Of a DNA stretch of 64,000 nt, positions 1 to 6,525 are shown piece by piece; within the stretch, counting starts at the first letter, position 1, and every line of letters begins with the position of its first letter. This DNA is from Timaviella obliquedivisa GSE-PSE-MK23-08B (GTDB lineage Bacteria; Cyanobacteriota; Cyanobacteriia; Elainellales; Elainellaceae): the NCBI GenBank assembly GCA_019358855.1, contig JAHHII010000008.1, positions 1-64,000 on the forward strand, given 5' to 3'. The position numbers and the translations under genes were made by a program. The notes beneath the pieces were generated by a model. It was not told the origin of the DNA. It did no database searches and saw only the letters and a program-made list of their open reading frames with translations.

Positions 1-152
<152 letters not shown>

Positions 153-181
153 ACATTTAGCTTCGTTAAATTTAGATTTTT

Positions 182-204
182 GCCTCCTTCCATGGGGGCT
201 TTTT
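182..204 (+). terminator. Rho-independent terminator of psbD
   Basis: GCCTCC pairs with GGGGGC across a six-base loop (one T-G pair), followed by a run of five T. It lies 30 bases after the psbD stop and supports psbD ending its transcript here without psbC. Confidence 0.7.
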
Positions 205-271
205 CATGGCGATCGCTAACCTTCTCTAACAACCAATGTAGCTCCTCGGCTTTTAAATTCCTGTGTTATCT

Positions 272-300
272 TGTAATAGGTGTATTACACAGGATGTAAT
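272..300 (+). promoter_or_regulatory. Triple TGTAAT/ATTACA motif, possible operator
   Basis: TGTAAT at 272-277, its inverse ATTACA at 284-289 and TGTAAT again at 295-300 are spaced almost evenly (11-12 bases) upstream of the micro-gene at 365. The first two form an inverted repeat with a six-base centre. The spacing is not the GTA-N8-TAC of NtcA. A TTGACA hexamer follows at about 314. A regulator-binding role is inferred only from the symmetry and position. Confidence 0.35.
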
Positions 301-364
301 ACCCGCTGAGTGCTTGACACTCTTCTGTTCTACAAGCCGTTTAGAAATTCAGGAGGTGATGCTT

Positions 365-436
365 ATGTCAGATAGTAGTAAATGCTTGGGTCTTCAAATT
401 GACGTGAGCTGGCTGTGTGCTGGGGCTGCTCTCTAG
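365..436 (+). CDS. Putative 23-residue peptide (micro-gene)
   Basis: An ATG frame of 23 codons ending in TAG is preceded by AGGAGGTGAT, a ten-base match to the 16S rRNA 3' end, with eight bases between GGAGG and ATG. Such a complete Shine-Dalgarno is rare next to the weaker sites used elsewhere in this window. The peptide has two cysteines (residues 7 and 18) around a short hydrophobic centre and ends AGAAL. No family is recognised. Downstream lie a hairpin (GCTGGG 485-490 with CCCAGC 509-514) and a strong terminator at 543-606, so it looks like a separate transcription unit. The CCTCC in the hairpin arm could pair with the GGAGG. It may be a real small protein, a leader peptide, or the coding part of a dual-function RNA. 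Confidence 0.45.
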   Translation: MSDSSKCLGLQIDVSWLCAGAAL

Positions 437-542
437 CAGTAAGGTCATCTTTTTTGAGAGAGTTTCACTAACTTCCTTAAGAAAGCTGGGTTGGCTTTTA
501 GAGTCCCTCCCAGCAGTCTAGGTCAATTAAAGACCCGCTACA

Positions 543-606
543 CCGCTCCTATCCTTGTGTTTAGGCTTTTGTCTATTCGCGTCTGGTAGGAGCGGATAGT
601 TTTTTA
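543..606 (+). terminator. Strong hairpin terminator after the micro-gene
   Basis: CCGCTCCTATCC (543-554) pairs with GGTAGGAGCGG (585-595) with one bulged base, followed by ATAG and six T. It closes the transcription unit holding the 23-codon frame and separates it from the porin genes. Confidence 0.7.
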
Positions 607-607
607 A

Positions 608-1151
608 ACCTAAATTTTTGTATGATGCCATCTCTTACCCAGAGACAGCATTTTTGTTTGTGGGGTCTATCTACGGATGCATAGCAGAAATGATATTTCG
701 GTATGAGCTAAACCTTTTTCCTAGAAGTTTCACTTTTGCTCTAAGAGGCTTTTGAGTAACATGTAGAGGTCTAAATTTGCAACCTAGTATAGGAATTGAA
801 GGCGTGTATAAAATACCTTCTATTAACCTTAAAAAAACTCACTATCTTGTAAGTCAACTGACTTTTCTAGACTACTTAGTTTATAAGTTCTTAACTTTTA
901 ATTAATTCATTGAGCCTTGTCTAGGTCATGAATACTGTCCTGAATAATGTATTTTCTTTAATCTAGGTTATTTTTAGAAGAATGACTGATGAAGAGTAGT
1001 GCCATACGTTATGTTGACGCTGTTTAATCCGTTTATGCCATCATTTCAGTTGTTGCTTGGACGACATGGTTTCAGAATTCCTTAGTGTTATTCTCTGGGG
1101 TGAAATGCTCTGAGCTTTTGAGCATTTCTTAATTTATTAAGGTGTGAGGAA
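608..1151. other. AT-rich spacer upstream of the first porin
   Basis: I see no convincing reading frame or RNA gene in these 540 bases. The only clear structure is a nine-base-pair hairpin, GAAATGCTC (1102-1110) with GAGCATTTC (1120-1128), immediately before the porin Shine-Dalgarno. It could be a 5' untranslated-region stabiliser or a control element for the porin mRNA. Confidence 0.5.
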
Positions 1152-2963
1152 ATGATGAATAAAGTTTTATGGAGCACACTGCTGGCATCTCCTGCATTTC
1201 TTGTTGCTACGCTGTTTACAGCAGTGCCCGCGATCGCTATTGAAGCTGAAGTCCAACTCAGCGGAGCTTCTACTTCTGATGTACTAGCCTCAGTTTCATT
1301 GCCTAAAGTGGCTGCGGTACAAGTTAGCGAGGCAGCCGCTGTCATCGCTCCAGTGCCTGCCCAAGTGGCTCAGATTTCTGCTCCAGTTGCCCCTGCTCCC
1401 TCCAACGTTGACTCGCTCAATCAGGTTGTTGAATATAGCAACGAAGGCAACAACGGTCTGGCACAAGCCGGTGGGTTGACCATCGATCGCCTCTCCGATG
1501 TCCGTCCTAGCGACTGGGCATATACTGCGTTGCAAAACCTGGTTGAGAAGTATGCGTGTATTGTGGGCTATCCTAACCTGACATACCAAGGGAACCGGGC
1601 GTTGACGCGCTACGAGTTTGCAGCGGGTTTGAGTTCGTGCCTAGACCGGATCAGCGACCTGATTGCAGCGAGCACGGCTGACTTAGCGACCGCGGAAGAC
1701 CTGGCGACGCTCCAACGCTTGCAAGAAGAGTTCGCTGCTGAACTGGCAACCCTACGCGGCAAGGTGGATTCTTTAGAAGCTCGGACTGCTGAGTTAGAAG
1801 CAAACCAGTTCTCTACCACGACAAAGCTGGTGGGTGAGACCGTTTTTTCAGTCAGTGACATTTTTGGCGGTGGTAACGATAGCACCGAGAATGATCTGGG
1901 TGATATCAATGAAACAACTTTCCAATATCGGACTCGTCTAAACTTTGATACCAGCTTCACCGGTCGAGATCAGTTGAGAGCCCGTCTTCAAGCAGGTAAC
2001 TTTAACCGATTTGTCACCACCGATCCTGCAACTTCTTCCTCGCTGTTAGGCAACGAAGGACGGCTGGGTTATGACACGGGCACAAGCAACGCCCTTGAGC
2101 TTGATGACTTATACTATCGCTTCCCAATTGGCGATAAGGTTACTGCTCGAATTGTTGCCAATGCGGGTGCTTTCAACGATATCGTCAACACGGTTAGCCC
2201 CTTTAGTTCAAGCGGTACGGGTGCCCTTTCTCGGTTTGGTCGGTTTAACCCTATCTACCGTGCTCCGAGCGTCAACGCAGGAGCGGCTACAAGTATTCAG
2301 TTCAATGACCAGATTACGCTTCAACTGGGCTACCTAGCTGGCGAAGCAGAACGTTCTGGTAGTGGTGCCGGTTTGTTCAATGGTAACTATGGTGCAATTG
2401 GTCAACTAACCTTGACCCCCTTTAATCGCTTGACTTTAGGTCTTACCTACATCAATGCCTACGTTCAGGGAAGGGACAGCGCCGGCAGCTCTATTGGCAA
2501 CAATACTGGAACAGGCAGTTCTCTGGCTCGTGTATCAATTGGGAGACCTCTGTCGATCAACTCCTATGGCGTTGAGGCTAACTTTAAGGTGTCGAGCGGA
2601 CTCCAAGTTGGTGGCTGGGCAGGTTACTCTCACATCCGCGCCATTGGGGTGGGTGATGCTGATGTTTGGAACTATGCTCTAACGGTTGCACTTCCTGATT
2701 TAGGTGGTAGAGGCAACCAATTAGGTATTGTTGCAGGTATTCAGCCTCGCTTGACGGGTGCCGATGCAGAAGTTGGCGACCTCCTCTCTGGCGATCGCAG
2801 AAGTGATCCAGATGTTGGTCTTCACCTTGAGGGTTTCTATCGTCTTCGGCTTAGTGACAACATCAGTATTACTCCTGGTGTGATTGTTTTGACTGAGCCG
2901 AACCACAACAGCAACAATGATACTGCTGTCATTGGGGTCGTTAGAACCACGTTTAGCTTCTAA
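1152..2963 (+). CDS. SLH-domain OprB-type porin (iron uptake porin family), copy 1
   Basis: This 603-residue protein is a cyanobacterial outer-membrane porin that lets small solutes, possibly inorganic ions, cross the outer membrane. A Sec signal peptide ends near AIA at residue 29. It is followed by an Ala/Pro/Val linker, an SLH domain at about 110-165 that anchors to the cell wall (VRPSDWAYTALQNL, NRALTRYEFAAGL), a coiled coil at about 170-215 and an OprB beta-barrel to the C-terminal RTTFSF, whose final Phe is the usual outer-membrane assembly signal. GTGAGGA stands just before the tandem ATG codons. A paralogue follows at 3162. The SLH segment is almost identical in DNA between the two copies while the barrels differ widely. 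Confidence 0.9.
   Translation: MMNKVLWSTLLASPAFLVATLFTAVPAIAIEAEVQLSGASTSDVLASVSLPKVAAVQVSEAAAVIAPVPAQVAQISAPVAPAPSNVDSLNQVVEYSNEGNNGLAQAGGLTIDRLSDVRPSDWAYTALQNLVEKYACIVGYPNLTYQGNRALTRYEFAAGLSSCLDRISDLIAASTADLATAEDLATLQRLQEEFAAELATLRGKVDSLEARTAELEANQFSTTTKLVGETVFSVSDIFGGGNDSTENDLGDINETTFQYRTRLNFDTSFTGRDQLRARLQAGNFNRFVTTDPATSSSLLGNEGRLGYDTGTSNALELDDLYYRFPIGDKVTARIVANAGAFNDIVNTVSPFSSSGTGALSRFGRFNPIYRAPSVNAGAATSIQFNDQITLQLGYLAGEAERSGSGAGLFNGNYGAIGQLTLTPFNRLTLGLTYINAYVQGRDSAGSSIGNNTGTGSSLARVSIGRPLSINSYGVEANFKVSSGLQVGGWAGYSHIRAIGVGDADVWNYALTVALPDLGGRGNQLGIVAGIQPRLTGADAEVGDLLSGDRRSDPDVGLHLEGFYRLRLSDNISITPGVIVLTEPNHNSNNDTAVIGVVRTTFSF
1360..1665 (+). repeat. Porin shared block, copy 1
   Basis: This stretch matches 3427-3750 with one base change and an 18-base insertion in the other copy. 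It covers the end of the linker, the SLH domain and the start of the coiled coil. Silent differences are frequent right after the block, so identity ends abruptly. Confidence 0.9.
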
Positions 2964-2972
2964 ATTGATCTA

Positions 2973-3009
2973 GCGGAGTTGGCAAATTATGTTCAACTCC
3001 GCCTTTTTT
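2973..3009 (+). terminator. Terminator of porin copy 1
   Basis: GCGGAGTTG pairs perfectly with CAACTCCGC over a 12-base loop, followed by CTTTTTT. It lies ten bases after the stop codon, so the two porins are probably transcribed separately. Confidence 0.85.
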
Positions 3010-3161
3010 GAGAAAAAGATCTTCACTCCTAAGCCTTAATCTGCAAGGCTTTTCGTTAATTAAGTTTAAGTTTTCTTTGAAGCTACCCTTGATCGATCGA
3101 ATTTCTTTAGCGTAGAATGTTACTCAGAGTCATTCTTGATTTAGGTGTGAGGAAAATTTTT

Positions 3162-4913
3162 ATGTTATCTAAAGTTCTTTGGAACTCTCTTCTAGCTACG
3201 CCAGCGCTGCTCGGCGCGGCTTTGATCGTTTCTTCTTCTGCGATCGCGGCAGAAACTCAGCCTTCCACAAAAGCTGATGTATTGCTAGGCGACGTTACAA
3301 GTTTACACATTGATTCTGTGGCTGCTCCTGAAGTTGCTCCAGTCCAAATCAGCGCTGTTCCTACTGCTGAATTAGCTCCTACAGCTTCAACAGATGCACC
3401 TGCAGAGATGGCTCCTATTGCACCTACCCAAGTGGCTCAGATTTCTGCTCCAGTTGCCCCTGCTGCTCCAGTTGCCCCTGCTCCCTCCAACGTTGACTCG
3501 CTCAATCAGGTTGTTGAATATAGCAACGAAGGCAACAACGGTCTGGCACAAGCCGGTGGGTTGACCATCGATCGCCTCTCCGATGTCCGTCCTAGCGACT
3601 GGGCATATACTGCGTTGCAAAACCTGGTTGAGAAGTATGCGTGTATCGTGGGCTATCCTAACCTGACATACCAAGGGAACCGGGCGTTGACGCGCTACGA
3701 GTTTGCAGCGGGTTTGAGTTCGTGCCTAGACCGGATCAGCGACCTGATTGCGGCGAGCACAGCAGACCTAGCGACCGCCGAAGACCTTGCTACTCTACAG
3801 CGGCTTCAAGAAGAGTTCGCTGCTGAACTGGCAACTTTGCGTGGTCGCGTTGATTCTTTAGAAGCTCGCACTGCTGAGTTGGAAGCAAACCAGTTCTCCA
3901 CTACCACCAAGCTGAAGGGTGAAACTATCTTCATCGTTGGTGTACCTATTGATGAAGACGATGCGTTTGATGATCAGCCTCTTGCTGGCTACCGAGTTCG
4001 CTTGAACTTTGATACTAGCTTCACTGGCGACGACCTCTTGAGAGCCCGTCTTCAGGCCCGTGATATCGATAGATTTGATGGATTTGGCGGAACGAACTGG
4101 ACAATTGGTTCAGGTGTAGGCGATAACATCACTCTAGACAAGCTCTACTACACCTTCCCCTTAGGCAACAGCGTTGATGTGACGGTTGCGGCTCAAGGTT
4201 ATGCTGATTCTGACTGGGTTGCCAGCAGTATTACTCCTTTGGATAGCGATGGTGGCGGTTCTATCGGCAGCTTTGGTAGTCCTCCCGCCTATGACTTTAT
4301 TCCAGGAAGTGCAGGCTTAGGTGCGATCGTTCAATTATCAGATAACTTCAGCCTTGATTTTGGCTATTCTGCTGCTGAAGCAGAACGCTCAAGCCCTGGC
4401 GCAGGTCTGTTCAACGGAGACTACGGTATCATCGCTCAGTTAACCTACCTTAGCGATTTCTTGGATGCTGCCCTAGTTTATGGAAATGGTTATAGTGGCA
4501 CTGGCTTCACTAACGGTGGTTCGGGTGGACCTGCTATTGCTAATACCTACGGTGCTTTGGTCAACTTCAAGTTTGGTGACTTTGAAGTTGGTGGTAACGC
4601 TGCCTATATTCCAATTATTGATATTGGCAACAACAGCTACGATGTTTGGAGCTACCAAGCAACCTTGGCAATTCGTGACTTGGGTGGTAGTGGTAACATG
4701 CTCGGTGTGTTGGCAGGTGTTGCTCCTTACGATTCTGACCTAGCTTTGGGTCTAGATGATGACAACTCATTTGTTGGAGAAATCTTCTACAAACTTCAGT
4801 TGAGTGACAATATTTCTGTTACTCCTGGTCTGATCTACATTGACAGTCCTGGTAATGACAGTGCTAATGACTCAACTTTCGTTGGCGCACTAAGAACAAC
4901 CTTCTCGTTCTAA
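3162..4913 (+). CDS. SLH-domain OprB-type porin (iron uptake porin family), copy 2
   Basis: The 583-residue product has the same plan as the upstream porin: signal peptide ending near AIAA, a longer Ala/Pro linker, SLH domain, coiled coil and OprB barrel ending RTTFSF. I start it at the ATG at 3162 because AGGTGTGAGGA precedes it, exactly as for copy 1, and the residues from there (MLSKVLWNSLLATPA) align with the first porin's signal peptide. An in-frame ATG at 3117 would only add residues unlike a signal sequence. The barrel differs strongly from copy 1, with acidic loops (DEDDAFDD), so the two may pass different solutes. The linker contains a tandem 18-base duplication encoding APVAPA. Confidence 0.9.
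   Translation: MLSKVLWNSLLATPALLGAALIVSSSAIAAETQPSTKADVLLGDVTSLHIDSVAAPEVAPVQISAVPTAELAPTASTDAPAEMAPIAPTQVAQISAPVAPAAPVAPAPSNVDSLNQVVEYSNEGNNGLAQAGGLTIDRLSDVRPSDWAYTALQNLVEKYACIVGYPNLTYQGNRALTRYEFAAGLSSCLDRISDLIAASTADLATAEDLATLQRLQEEFAAELATLRGRVDSLEARTAELEANQFSTTTKLKGETIFIVGVPIDEDDAFDDQPLAGYRVRLNFDTSFTGDDLLRARLQARDIDRFDGFGGTNWTIGSGVGDNITLDKLYYTFPLGNSVDVTVAAQGYADSDWVASSITPLDSDGGGSIGSFGSPPAYDFIPGSAGLGAIVQLSDNFSLDFGYSAAEAERSSPGAGLFNGDYGIIAQLTYLSDFLDAALVYGNGYSGTGFTNGGSGGPAIANTYGALVNFKFGDFEVGGNAAYIPIIDIGNNSYDVWSYQATLAIRDLGGSGNMLGVLAGVAPYDSDLALGLDDDNSFVGEIFYKLQLSDNISVTPGLIYIDSPGNDSANDSTFVGALRTTFSF
3427..3750 (+). repeat. Porin shared block, copy 2
   Basis: Counterpart of 1360-1665. It is identical apart from one T/C change and one extra copy of the 18-base unit GCTCCAGTTGCCCCTGCT near its start. 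Confidence 0.9.
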
Positions 4914-4957: not shown

Positions 4958-5007
4958 AAACATAAAGAAGCTCAAGCTTTTCCATAAGCTTGAGCTTCTT
5001 TATGTTT
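4958..5007 (+). terminator. Very long hairpin terminator after porin copy 2
   Basis: A perfect 21-base-pair stem joins 4958-4978 and 4987-5007 over an eight-base loop. The left arm begins AAACATAAAG and the right arm ends CTTTATGTTT, so it can work on both strands. It overlaps the longest possible frame of the following Rrf2 gene, which argues for that gene's downstream start. Confidence 0.75.
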
Positions 5008-5046
5008 GAAAAACTTAACCCTACAAACCCCACTGTAGAACCGGGG

Positions 5047-5052
5047 TATACT
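5047..5052 (+). promoter_or_regulatory. Candidate -10 box for the Rrf2-cysK unit
   Basis: TATACT lies about 35 bases before the GTG start of the Rrf2 gene, between the terminator and the coding region. No good -35 hexamer is seen at standard spacing, which fits a regulated promoter. Autoregulation by the Rrf2 protein at this spot is an inference. Confidence 0.35.
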
Positions 5053-5085
5053 AAAAGAGTAGTCTTATCTTCTCTCTTTCTACCT

Positions 5086-5523
5086 GTGGAACTCTCCTGC
5101 AAAAGTGAATATGCGCTGCTAGCTCTTCTAGAACTGACTGCTTGTTACAGCAATGGTGAACCTTTGCAAATCCGACAAATAGCAATAGAACAAAGCATTC
5201 CCGATCGCTATCTCGAACAACTCTTGGCGACCCTTAGGCGGGCAGGGCTTGTTCGGAGCCAACGAGGTGCAAAAGGAGGATACATTTTGGCTAGAGAGCC
5301 TTGGAAAATTACTCTTTTTGAGGTTGTGAAGTGCATAGAAGGGACCGATTCTCAACCGCATGATCCCCATCGAGAGCCTAAATCTGTAGAAGGTACTGTC
5401 ATTCGGGAAGTTTGGCAAGAAGCAGGTCAAGCCTCGGATGTAATTTTGCAAAGGTATACGCTACAAGACATTGCTGAGAAGCGAGAAGCAAGACAGCGAC
5501 TAGATATCATGTATTACATTTAA
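5086..5523 (+). CDS. Rrf2-family transcriptional regulator
   Basis: The 145-residue protein begins (V/M)ELSCKSEYALLALLEL, the standard start of cyanobacterial Rrf2 regulators, followed by a winged helix (IRQIAIEQSIPDRYLEQLL, GLVRSQRGAKGGY). I choose the GTG at 5086 over the ATG at 4990, because the extra 32 residues match nothing and overlap a terminator hairpin. The cysteine triplet that binds Fe-S in IscR is missing from the segment after VVKCIEG, so it resembles cluster-free members such as CymR, the cysteine-metabolism repressor of Bacillus. It is followed after 39 bases by cysK in the same direction, which suggests control of sulfur or cysteine supply. Confidence 0.85.
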   Translation: MELSCKSEYALLALLELTACYSNGEPLQIRQIAIEQSIPDRYLEQLLATLRRAGLVRSQRGAKGGYILAREPWKITLFEVVKCIEGTDSQPHDPHREPKSVEGTVIREVWQEAGQASDVILQRYTLQDIAEKREARQRLDIMYYI

Positions 5524-5562: not shown

Positions 5563-6525
5563 ATGCGAATTGCTAACAACATCACTGAATTAATTGGTCG
5601 CACTCCATTAGTACGTCTGAACCGCATTCCTCAAACTGCGGGGTGTGTCGCTCAAATTGTGGTAAAGCTAGAGGGAATGAATCCATCTGCATCGGTGAAA
5701 GATCGGATTGGGATTAGCATGATTGAAGATGCAGAGCAGAAGGGACTGATTTCGCCAGGGAAGACGATTTTGGTTGAACCCACTTCTGGCAACACAGGGA
5801 TTGCGCTAGCAATGACAGCGGCAGCAAAAGGTTATCAATTAATTTTGACGATGCCAGAAACTATGAGTTCTGAGCGACGGGCAATGTTGCGAGCTTATGG
5901 GGCAAAGCTAGAGCTAACTCCCGGCATTGAGGGTATGGGCGGCTGTATTCAACGAGCACAGCAAATTGTCAATTCTTTGCCTGATGCTTATATGCTGCAA
6001 CAGTTTAGCAATCTGGCGAATCCAAAAATTCATCGTGAGACTACTGCCAACGAGATCTGGGAAGACACCGAGGGACAAGTTGATATGTTAGTAGCAGGCG
6101 TGGGTACAGGCGGCACGATTACAGGCGTAGCTGAAGTTTTGAAGCAGCGAAAGCCTAGTTTCAAAGCGATCGCTGTTGAACCTGCCAATAGCTCTATCCT
6201 ATCGGGTGGGCGACCAGGGCCTCATAAAATTCAGGGGATTGGAGCGGGGTTTGTACCTCAAGTTTTAAAGGTAGAGTTGATCGACGAAGTGATTACCATT
6301 AGTGATGATGAGGCGATCGCGTATGGTCGTCGCTTAGCGCGTGAAGAAGGACTGCTGTCTGGGATTTCTACAGGTGCAGCTTTGGCAGCAGCGACTAGAG
6401 TGGCTTGCCGTTCTGAAAACGCAGGCAAGCTAATTGTGATGATTCAGCCTAGTTTTGGTGAGCGTTATTTGAGCACGCCACTGTTTCAAGATCCAGAATT
6501 AGTAGCCTCCACTGTTTTAGGATAG
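5563..6525 (+). CDS. cysK: Cysteine synthase A (O-acetylserine sulfhydrylase)
   Basis: The 320-residue enzyme makes cysteine from O-acetylserine and sulfide using pyridoxal phosphate, in the cytoplasm. PSASVKDR carries the Schiff-base lysine (residue 46), TSGNTGIA is the substrate loop, [10 protein letters not shown] is the phosphate-binding loop, and STGAALAAA closes the site. Length is typical of CysK. It lies directly behind the Rrf2 regulator and probably shares its transcript. In Bacillus, CysK is also a partner of the Rrf2 protein CymR, so a similar pairing is possible here but not shown. Confidence 0.93.

Follow-up and report, generated by a model that had tools for sequence, protein, structure and literature searches.

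Close to the beginning of the window, which is the whole stretch of 64,000 nucleotides that was analysed, a small transcription unit is located behind the 3' end of psbD and in front of two porin genes. The features which define this locus are as follows:

3-152, + strand: 3' end of psbD (D2 protein), an ORF and the upstream neighbour; the contig starts inside the gene
264-272, + strand: extended -10 promoter-like element TGTTATCTT
272-300, no strand assigned: TGTAAT/ATTACA/TGTAAT array around the inferred transcription start, genus-specific
351-360, + strand: Shine-Dalgarno sequence (SD) AGGAGGTGAT; its GGAGG starts 13 nt before the start codon in 145/153 homologs
365-436, + strand: ORF of 23 codons, MSDSSKCLGLQIDVSWLCAGAAL, ATG at 365-367 and TAG stop at 434-436
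374-382, + strand: codons 4 to 6, AGT AGT AAA, with codons 4 and 5 nearly frozen including their third positions
538-605, + strand: intrinsic terminator, stem and T-run, which ends the unit
1152-2963, + strand: OprB/SLH porin (Pfam PF04966 and PF00395), first gene downstream

The upstream gene was named from its sequence and is presumably psbD. A second copy, 97% identical over 152 bases, is found on another contig (G000 C1:677202-677353); the contig of the window starts inside psbD and the other contig ends inside the second copy (window 1-152), and the assembly seems to be broken at this repeat. The translations of the tandem porin genes (1152-2963 and 3117-4913) have a divergent N-terminal part which is followed by a nearly identical stretch. 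Behind them, a regulator of the Rrf2 family (4990-5523) and a PALP-family, cysteine-synthase-like gene (5563-6525) were assigned by Pfam, an arrangement that recalls the CymR-CysK pair of Firmicutes. Directly 5' of the ATG of the first porin gene, the bases GGTGTGAGGA (1141-1150) are the complement of ten bases in the Yfr1 motif CACUCCUCACACC (PMC4734099). The first porin downstream may, by this complementarity, be a target of Yfr1, as reported for the OprB porin gene alr4550 of Nostoc (PMC6974561).

The unit carries transcription and translation signals of its own. The pattern TGTG[TC]TANNNT, to which the promoter-like element belongs, was found in 61 of 153 distinct homologs at a median distance of 91 nt before the start codon, against 0.65 occurrences expected from shuffles. 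Transcription probably starts near position 279, which would give an RNA of about 330 nt (279-605) in the window. The array which had attracted attention in an earlier, sequence-only reading is present (TGTAAT 272-277, ATTACA 284-289, TGTAAT 295-300), but two or more copies occur in just 2/153 homologs, the window itself and L033 from the same genus; as a conserved operator it was therefore discarded. The ten-base SD is likewise present and is the single exact copy of AGGAGGTGAT within the 64 kb, where 0.06 copies are expected; its GGAGG ends 8 nt before the ATG. Its claimed match to the anti-SD presumes the usual 16S 3' end, and two patterns tried for this end gave no match in the present assembly. 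Folding of 49 sequences predicted the SD to be unpaired with a probability of 0.33. The strong terminator that had been proposed was confirmed: a stem (538-553/585-599) and the run T600-605 are present, and in 33 aligned sequences 98.7% of the cells of its 14 pairs are paired, 7 of the 14 pairs showing double changes.

Genomic context was available for 129 loci, where porin-, Rrf2- and cysK-type genes were labeled by the Pfam matches of the window and PCD and psbD are putative assignments. Up to four genes downstream, a porin-type gene was present at 82/129 loci and PCD at 41/129, and Rrf2-type and cysK-type genes recur in this range at 33/129 and 32/129 loci, respectively. A psbD-type gene lies within three genes upstream at 33/129 loci, a count lowered by contig ends, as 19 loci have no upstream gene at all. 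The nearest downstream gene is PCD at 40/129 and porin-type at 42/129 loci, and in the window itself the porin follows the unit in the same direction. Such an order would suit a cis-acting leader or attenuator of a PCD-porin operon. However, the nearest downstream gene is encoded on the opposite strand at 25/129 loci, and at 10/14 loci of the alpha-cyanobacterial form described below, and the terminator stem holds throughout the 33 aligned sequences, which makes this explanation very improbable. The promoter-like element, the terminator and the opposite-strand genes downstream argue for an autonomous gene. The candidates named earlier, a dual-function RNA, a small protein and a sensor leader peptide, were reasonable and in part remain so, whereas a leader of the downstream genes is disfavoured by the opposite-strand neighbours.

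When 98 genomes were searched with positions 225-640 of the window, strong matches concentrated in two blocks, one that begins 5' of the SD and ends with the stop codon, the other at about 498-608, and this concentration argues against a chance assembly of signals. A model of the ORF block (R1) was applied to 386 genomes of the phylum, among them other classes and many alpha-cyanobacterial genomes; 119 matched at E<=2.6e-11, and all of these belong to the window's class. Fourteen further genomes gave weak matches only, one of which (G258) led to the alpha-cyanobacterial form. A model of the 3' block (R2) detected 80/98 relatives and 71/85 of those with good quality; it also reached G048 and G080, which we take to be Gloeobacter-like, at weak E-values of 3.6e-4 and 5.9e-5. 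An exact-pattern scan of named genomes returned at least 117 stretches, and among the 80 matches listed all but one (L254) were cyanobacterial. L254 is a contig under an uncultured Anaerolineales MAG which bears the cyanobacterial motif; it may be cyanobacterial and have been misbinned. Over most of the class a genome usually gave one strong match, and the gene is, as far as these matches indicate, widespread in oxygenic cyanobacteria. Rfam 15 gave no match in window 1-640 (1-3200 were searched with E up to 5, both matches lying beyond 1900). The proposal of a deliberate transcription unit is thus strongly supported by the conserved frame, SD, terminator and promoter-like element.

Behind an SD with at least four of the five bases of GGAGG, an open frame was present at 171/171 fetched loci, some of which were fetched twice, and hence in 153/153 distinct homologs, which include one alpha-cyanobacterial sequence (G258). 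The frame comprises 23 codons in 122 homologs, 24 codons in 18, 17 codons in eight and other lengths between 16 and 27 codons in five; 141/153 (122, 18 and 1) fall within 23 to 25 codons, and in nine the frame is cut to 16-17 codons. Translation would start with ATG in 146 and GTG in seven homologs, and the stop codons are TAA in 80, TAG in 68 and TGA in five. Read in its two alternative frames, the stretch contains stops in 120/153 and 153/153 homologs. Where divergent lineages have indels in the ORF, the frame is preserved. At nine loci which had been placed through the 3' block the frame was present in 9/9, and five of them (G048, G065, G080, G093, G096) had given no match to the ORF block at E<0.01 in the DNA search of 98 genomes.

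Since the homologs are related, the counts of frames and of substitutions are not independent trials. On a tree of 142 sequences not chosen by frame length, six substitutions to an in-frame stop were counted in codons 2-23 against 20.9 expected, and 0/2000 random placements were as low. Two other estimates were set aside as biased: a count of one against 17.8 from 117 sequences chosen for 23 codons, and an independent-column estimate (10.5% of sampled frames with a stop) that shares the 23-codon bias. Synonymous changes in the 142-sequence tree amounted to 225 against 201.3 expected (sd 11.3), about 2 sd above random placement. Selection on the open frame is clear from these substitution patterns, and the amino acids appear to be selected less evenly than the frame. 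As stop avoidance is clear and synonymous changes are only slightly raised, translation rather than the peptide would be the selected property. A structured RNA which codes for nothing and whose frame is open by accident would agree with the strong structure described below and with synonymous sites that are frozen in places, but the avoided stops, the frame open in 153/153 and the in-frame indels leave it hardly any probability.

The constraint is distributed unevenly along the frame. In the 117-sequence tree, all positions of codons 4, 5, 9 and 17 are nearly unchanged, whereas amino acid changes are frequent at codons 2, 7, 8, 10, 14 and 15. Changes at the three codon positions numbered 4, 2 and 0 for codon 4, 1, 2 and 0 for codon 5 and 1, 14 and 6 for codon 6; AGT is kept at codon 4 in 135/153 and at codon 5 in 141/153 homologs. 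No conserved pairing partner was found for this AGT AGT (374-379), which is nearly invariant down to the third base. Three tandem stops (TAG TAG TAA) in another frame over codons 4-6 were discarded as the reason for the frozen AGTAGTAAA, as they are not kept in alpha-cyanobacterial sequences. A codon-specific attenuation (two serine codons and a nearby cysK-type gene) was also discarded, since only the frozen AGU codons fit. The second serine codon is TGT in most alpha-cyanobacterial sequences.

The same data bear on the possibility that a micropeptide is the product, acting on a partner in envelope, photosystem or metabolism, and that the RNA simply serves as its mRNA, whose translation or stability the stem would tune. 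Over 153 sequences the peptide follows the pattern M-x-[DE]-S-S-K-x-M-G-[HRL]-[QL]-[VI]-x-x-S-R-L-C-A-G-A-V-L. Codon 3, which is unpaired, keeps D or E in 133/153 despite a variable third base, codons 18-21 change mostly at third positions, and the slight excess of synonymous changes points in the same direction. Against a micropeptide stand the nearly frozen third positions of codons 4, 5, 9 and 17, where RNA-level constraint dominates, the frequent replacements at the six variable codons and the loss of the AGAVL end in the 17-codon forms. The peptide with two cysteines is present as it had been described, but its cysteines are not invariant among homologs. Searches with one peptide in Pfam and two in NCBIfam gave no match, which says little at such a short length. 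Taken together, we regard a micropeptide as the product as possible though rather unlikely.

The sequence-only reading had left it to a homolog search whether codons or structure are conserved; frame and ORF-3' UTR structure both proved to be. For the analysis of covariation 142 of the 153 sequences were used, the remaining 11, mostly divergent, being left out for want of an alignable 3' block. The terminator and a long stem between the ORF and the 3' UTR ranked highest by mutual information (with average-product correction), a measure for which no fold is assumed. This stem consists of four parts, named P1 to P4, for which paired cells and double-change cells are given from the 142 sequences:

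388-403, + strand: P1, 5' strand, codons 8-13; 95.3% of cells paired, 212 double-change cells
409-415, + strand: P2, 5' strand, codons 15-17; 98.4% paired, 46 double-change cells
420-425, + strand: P3, 5' strand, codons 19-21; 99.1% paired, 17 double-change cells
431-433, + strand: P4, 5' strand, codon 23 next to the stop; 93.8% paired, 6 double-change cells
437-500, + strand: variable linker and apical loop region, poorly conserved and of varying length
501-503, + strand: P4, 3' strand, from covariation
508-513, + strand: P3, 3' strand, from covariation, overlapping CCTCC
514-521, + strand: P2, 3' strand CAGTCTAG with one bulged base, from covariation
522-536, + strand: P1, 3' strand in the 3' UTR, from mutual information and pair counts
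409-423, + strand: alternative local hairpin in the ORF (409-413 with 419-423), drawn by RNAalifold; 95.8% paired, 8 double-change cells

With the strands shifted against each other by one or two columns, at most 52% of cells were paired in P1 and P2, up to 81% in P3 and up to 66% in P4, the weakest of the four. Slid controls, here and in the alignment that follows, flatter the stem, which was named after viewing the sequences, and mutual information is free of that bias. In an alignment of 33 sequences the whole structure including the terminator is paired in 95.4% of cells, with double changes in 20 pairs; there, 0/500 shuffles reached the observed covariation and slid versions paired in 27-49%. 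In 131/153 homologs, nucleotide +24 of the ORF is the first of the GGGU strand of P1, and in minimum-energy folds at least half of nucleotides 24-42 pairs with the 3' UTR in 123/153, compared with 3/153 for shuffled tails. Among nine folds shown, the fraction of ORF-3' UTR pairing is 0.0 for L115 and for L124 and L125, the latter two being Gloeobacter-like sequences folded with incomplete 3' ends. Codons 8 to 23 are, by covariation, the 5' arm of a long hairpin in which the linker forms the loop and behind which the terminator follows. The local ORF hairpin and P2/P3 are mutually exclusive; as the main fold the hairpin was rejected for its few double changes, and it was kept only as what could be an alternative state.

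The CCTCC at 506-510 belongs to this long stem. It had been thought to form a hairpin over the GGAGG, but covariation pairs the CCTCC region with the end of the ORF instead, and nothing found here speaks for a masked SD, with the qualification that an invariant SD cannot show covariation.

The alpha-cyanobacterial form has diverged, with an SD of the GGAGG type and 17 codons such as VSHSCKKQGLLIAENAG. It was found by BLAST from G258 in 51/81 genomes of the family and by a model (R3) in 93/151 genomes, 72/95 of those with good quality. Among near-complete genomes of 1.7-1.9 Mb, seven of those listed had no R3 match and eight others matched. Of 36 places, some of which were fetched twice, 34 were called as intact frames, L357 was intact on inspection and one is without SD and start codon. 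This last place (L350) is a second, degenerate copy in genome G087, about 5.3 kb from the intact one, in which both stem arms are partly retained and the end resembles a terminator. A frame broken while its flanks are kept, the finding that would have counted against a coding unit in the sequence-only reading, was thus encountered as one degenerate extra copy without start codon and, in part, as the shortened frames mentioned above; no other broken frame was seen among the fetched loci.

RNAalifold, applied to 26 alpha-cyanobacterial sequences alone, drew the same ORF-3' UTR stem (GGGUCUGCU with AGCGGACCC). Double changes were present in 0/24 of its pairs, so this stem rests on complementarity. 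GGGU is located at +24 in 27/27 distinct sequences, and at least half of nucleotides 24-42 pairs with the 3' UTR in the minimum-energy folds of 22/27. At two of the 14 alpha-cyanobacterial loci with context, psbD is the second gene upstream and a porin the first one downstream, and at two more a porin is the second gene downstream; the psbD and porin neighbours shared at the first two loci support the orthology of this form.

Taken together, the alignments make it very probable that the locus is an autonomous gene for a structured RNA, in which a frame of 16-27 codons is kept open and the codons from about the eighth onward are paired with a conserved arm of the 3' UTR. Since codons make up the 5' strand of the stem, any ribosome that translates the frame has to open the stem. 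Our main reading, to which we assign a probability of roughly 45% on the basis of sequence comparison, is that of a ribosome-gated structured micro-mRNA, perhaps with a dual function, whose stem is opened by translation, so that translation itself may work as a switch. Ribosomes would load at the very strong SD and would meet the stem at +24. An initiating ribosome has a footprint which reaches to about +16 to +19, and the stem would therefore begin just beyond it. Ribosomes that go on would open the 5' strand of the stem. The closed duplex would probably be a substrate of RNase III or an inert store, while in the open state the 3' arm could refold, be processed or bind further RNAs. The main signal would be that translation takes place, and the peptide may matter as well. 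Three features speak for a gate as the function: the frame is selected to stay open, the stem keeps a nearly constant distance to the start codon, and the SD is strong.

When the ORF was blocked in silico in 49 sequences, the mean unpaired probability went from 0.32 to 0.34 for the anti-SD-like 3' part, which was thus not freed, and from 0.14 to 0.39 for the P1 arm, which was freed only partly; this folding test supports gating only weakly, and the low predicted accessibility of the SD (0.33) likewise counts against it. An alternative is an RNA which pairs in trans, in the sense of RNAIII or SgrS, and carries a frame in addition, using UUCCUYCCGGCAGUC as a seed for SD regions. The conserved pyrimidine-rich, anti-SD-like stretch in the 3' arm would suit such a role, and the porin-type genes downstream at 82/129 loci recall porin-regulating sRNAs. 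But the stretch is explained by P3 pairing inside the RNA, and the 3' arm showed no clear excess of pairing over shuffles with the start regions of neighbouring genes, the mean z being -0.33 for porin (n=66), -0.40 for PCD (n=30), -0.72 for Rrf2 (n=31), -0.23 for cysK (n=29) and -0.14 for psbD (n=19). An RNA of this kind appears to us possible though rather unlikely, as does the micropeptide.

A short ORF in a structured RNA with an interaction between ORF and tail would also be expected for the toxin mRNA of a type I toxin-antitoxin system, shut by long-range pairing. Against this, inspection of the peptides by eye showed charged residues and no extended apolar stretch, most genomes across the class usually contain one strong match, and one exact pattern gave 0 matches in viral contigs; a toxin is accordingly a far-fetched explanation.

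A bolder version of the ribosome-gated reading, which we put forward tentatively and hold to be rather less than probable, is that of a switch dating from the root of oxygenic cyanobacteria, with the frame as its movable arm and the gate at the conserved +24, where translation per se, and not the peptide, would set the fate of the RNA; if true, the RNA would be a sensor of ribosome availability or of early elongation. A sequence that must act as code and as stem arm at once shows how both functions can come under joint selection, and a directly testable hypothesis on translation-controlled RNA follows from the +24 position. The gene is found near psbD and porins in many lineages, yet it is without a match in Rfam, Pfam or NCBIfam as searched.

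By analogy, the RNA could be a dual-function RNA or an mRNA controlled by its 3' arm, working like RNAIII or icaR; this is a likeness and not a membership. RNAIII/hld of Staphylococcus aureus contains a short ORF in a long structured regulatory RNA with a pyrimidine-rich, anti-SD-like 3' element. The present RNA is alike in its short ORF within a structured RNA and in its anti-SD-like, pyrimidine-rich 3' part; unlike RNAIII/hld, its ORF is one arm of the stem, pairing in trans is only a candidate and the lineage is unrelated. RNAIII is mentioned in PMC2518516 and PMC3868564, the former text describing Yfr6 of Prochlorococcus, a structured RNA that contains a conserved ORF for 33 aa and was likened to RNAIII by its authors. 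Compared by this description, Yfr6 is also a cyanobacterial structured RNA with a small ORF, but its peptide is longer and it belongs to Prochlorococcus.

For icaR, the text of PMC3868564 describes a 3' UTR arm of the mRNA which pairs with its own SD region, hinders ribosome loading and makes a substrate for RNase III. RNase III would for this reason be a natural candidate partner here as well. In both RNAs an arm of the 3' UTR folds back to pair with the mRNA it belongs to; the partner in icaR is the SD region, whereas the covarying partner here is the second half of the frame, the invariant SD being unable to show covariation. Yfr1 is described as pan-cyanobacterial with known trans targets that include the porin gene alr4550 (PMC4734099, PMC6974561); it shares the wide distribution and the porin connections of the present RNA, but is short and non-coding.

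The closest counterpart is ncl0160, a transcript of Synechocystis 6803 whose homologs are treated by Brenes-Álvarez et al. (2016; PMC4734099). According to that text, 83 homologs encode a conserved, probably translated peptide of 23-25 aa with an RBS, starts are mostly ATG and in a few cases GTG, the stops are TAA in 47, TAG in 34 and TGA in two of the 83, and the marine Prochlorococcus/Synechococcus lineage was excluded from the survey. Its text on ncl0160 contains no ORF-3' UTR stem, covariation or +24 position, a predicted structure, which may already include the stem, being placed in its Figure S2, and no other description of ncl0160 was found among further texts, which include PMC5126843, PMC2518516 and PMC8557916 (subscription papers and supplements aside). 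Like ncl0160, the present unit has 23-25 codons behind an RBS, mostly ATG and few GTG starts and the stop order TAA > TAG > TGA. As start and stop usage, size and spread agree, the unit is taken as a member of the ncl0160 family, matched by description and not by sequence, and gating would suggest a function for a transcript which the texts consulted only catalogue.
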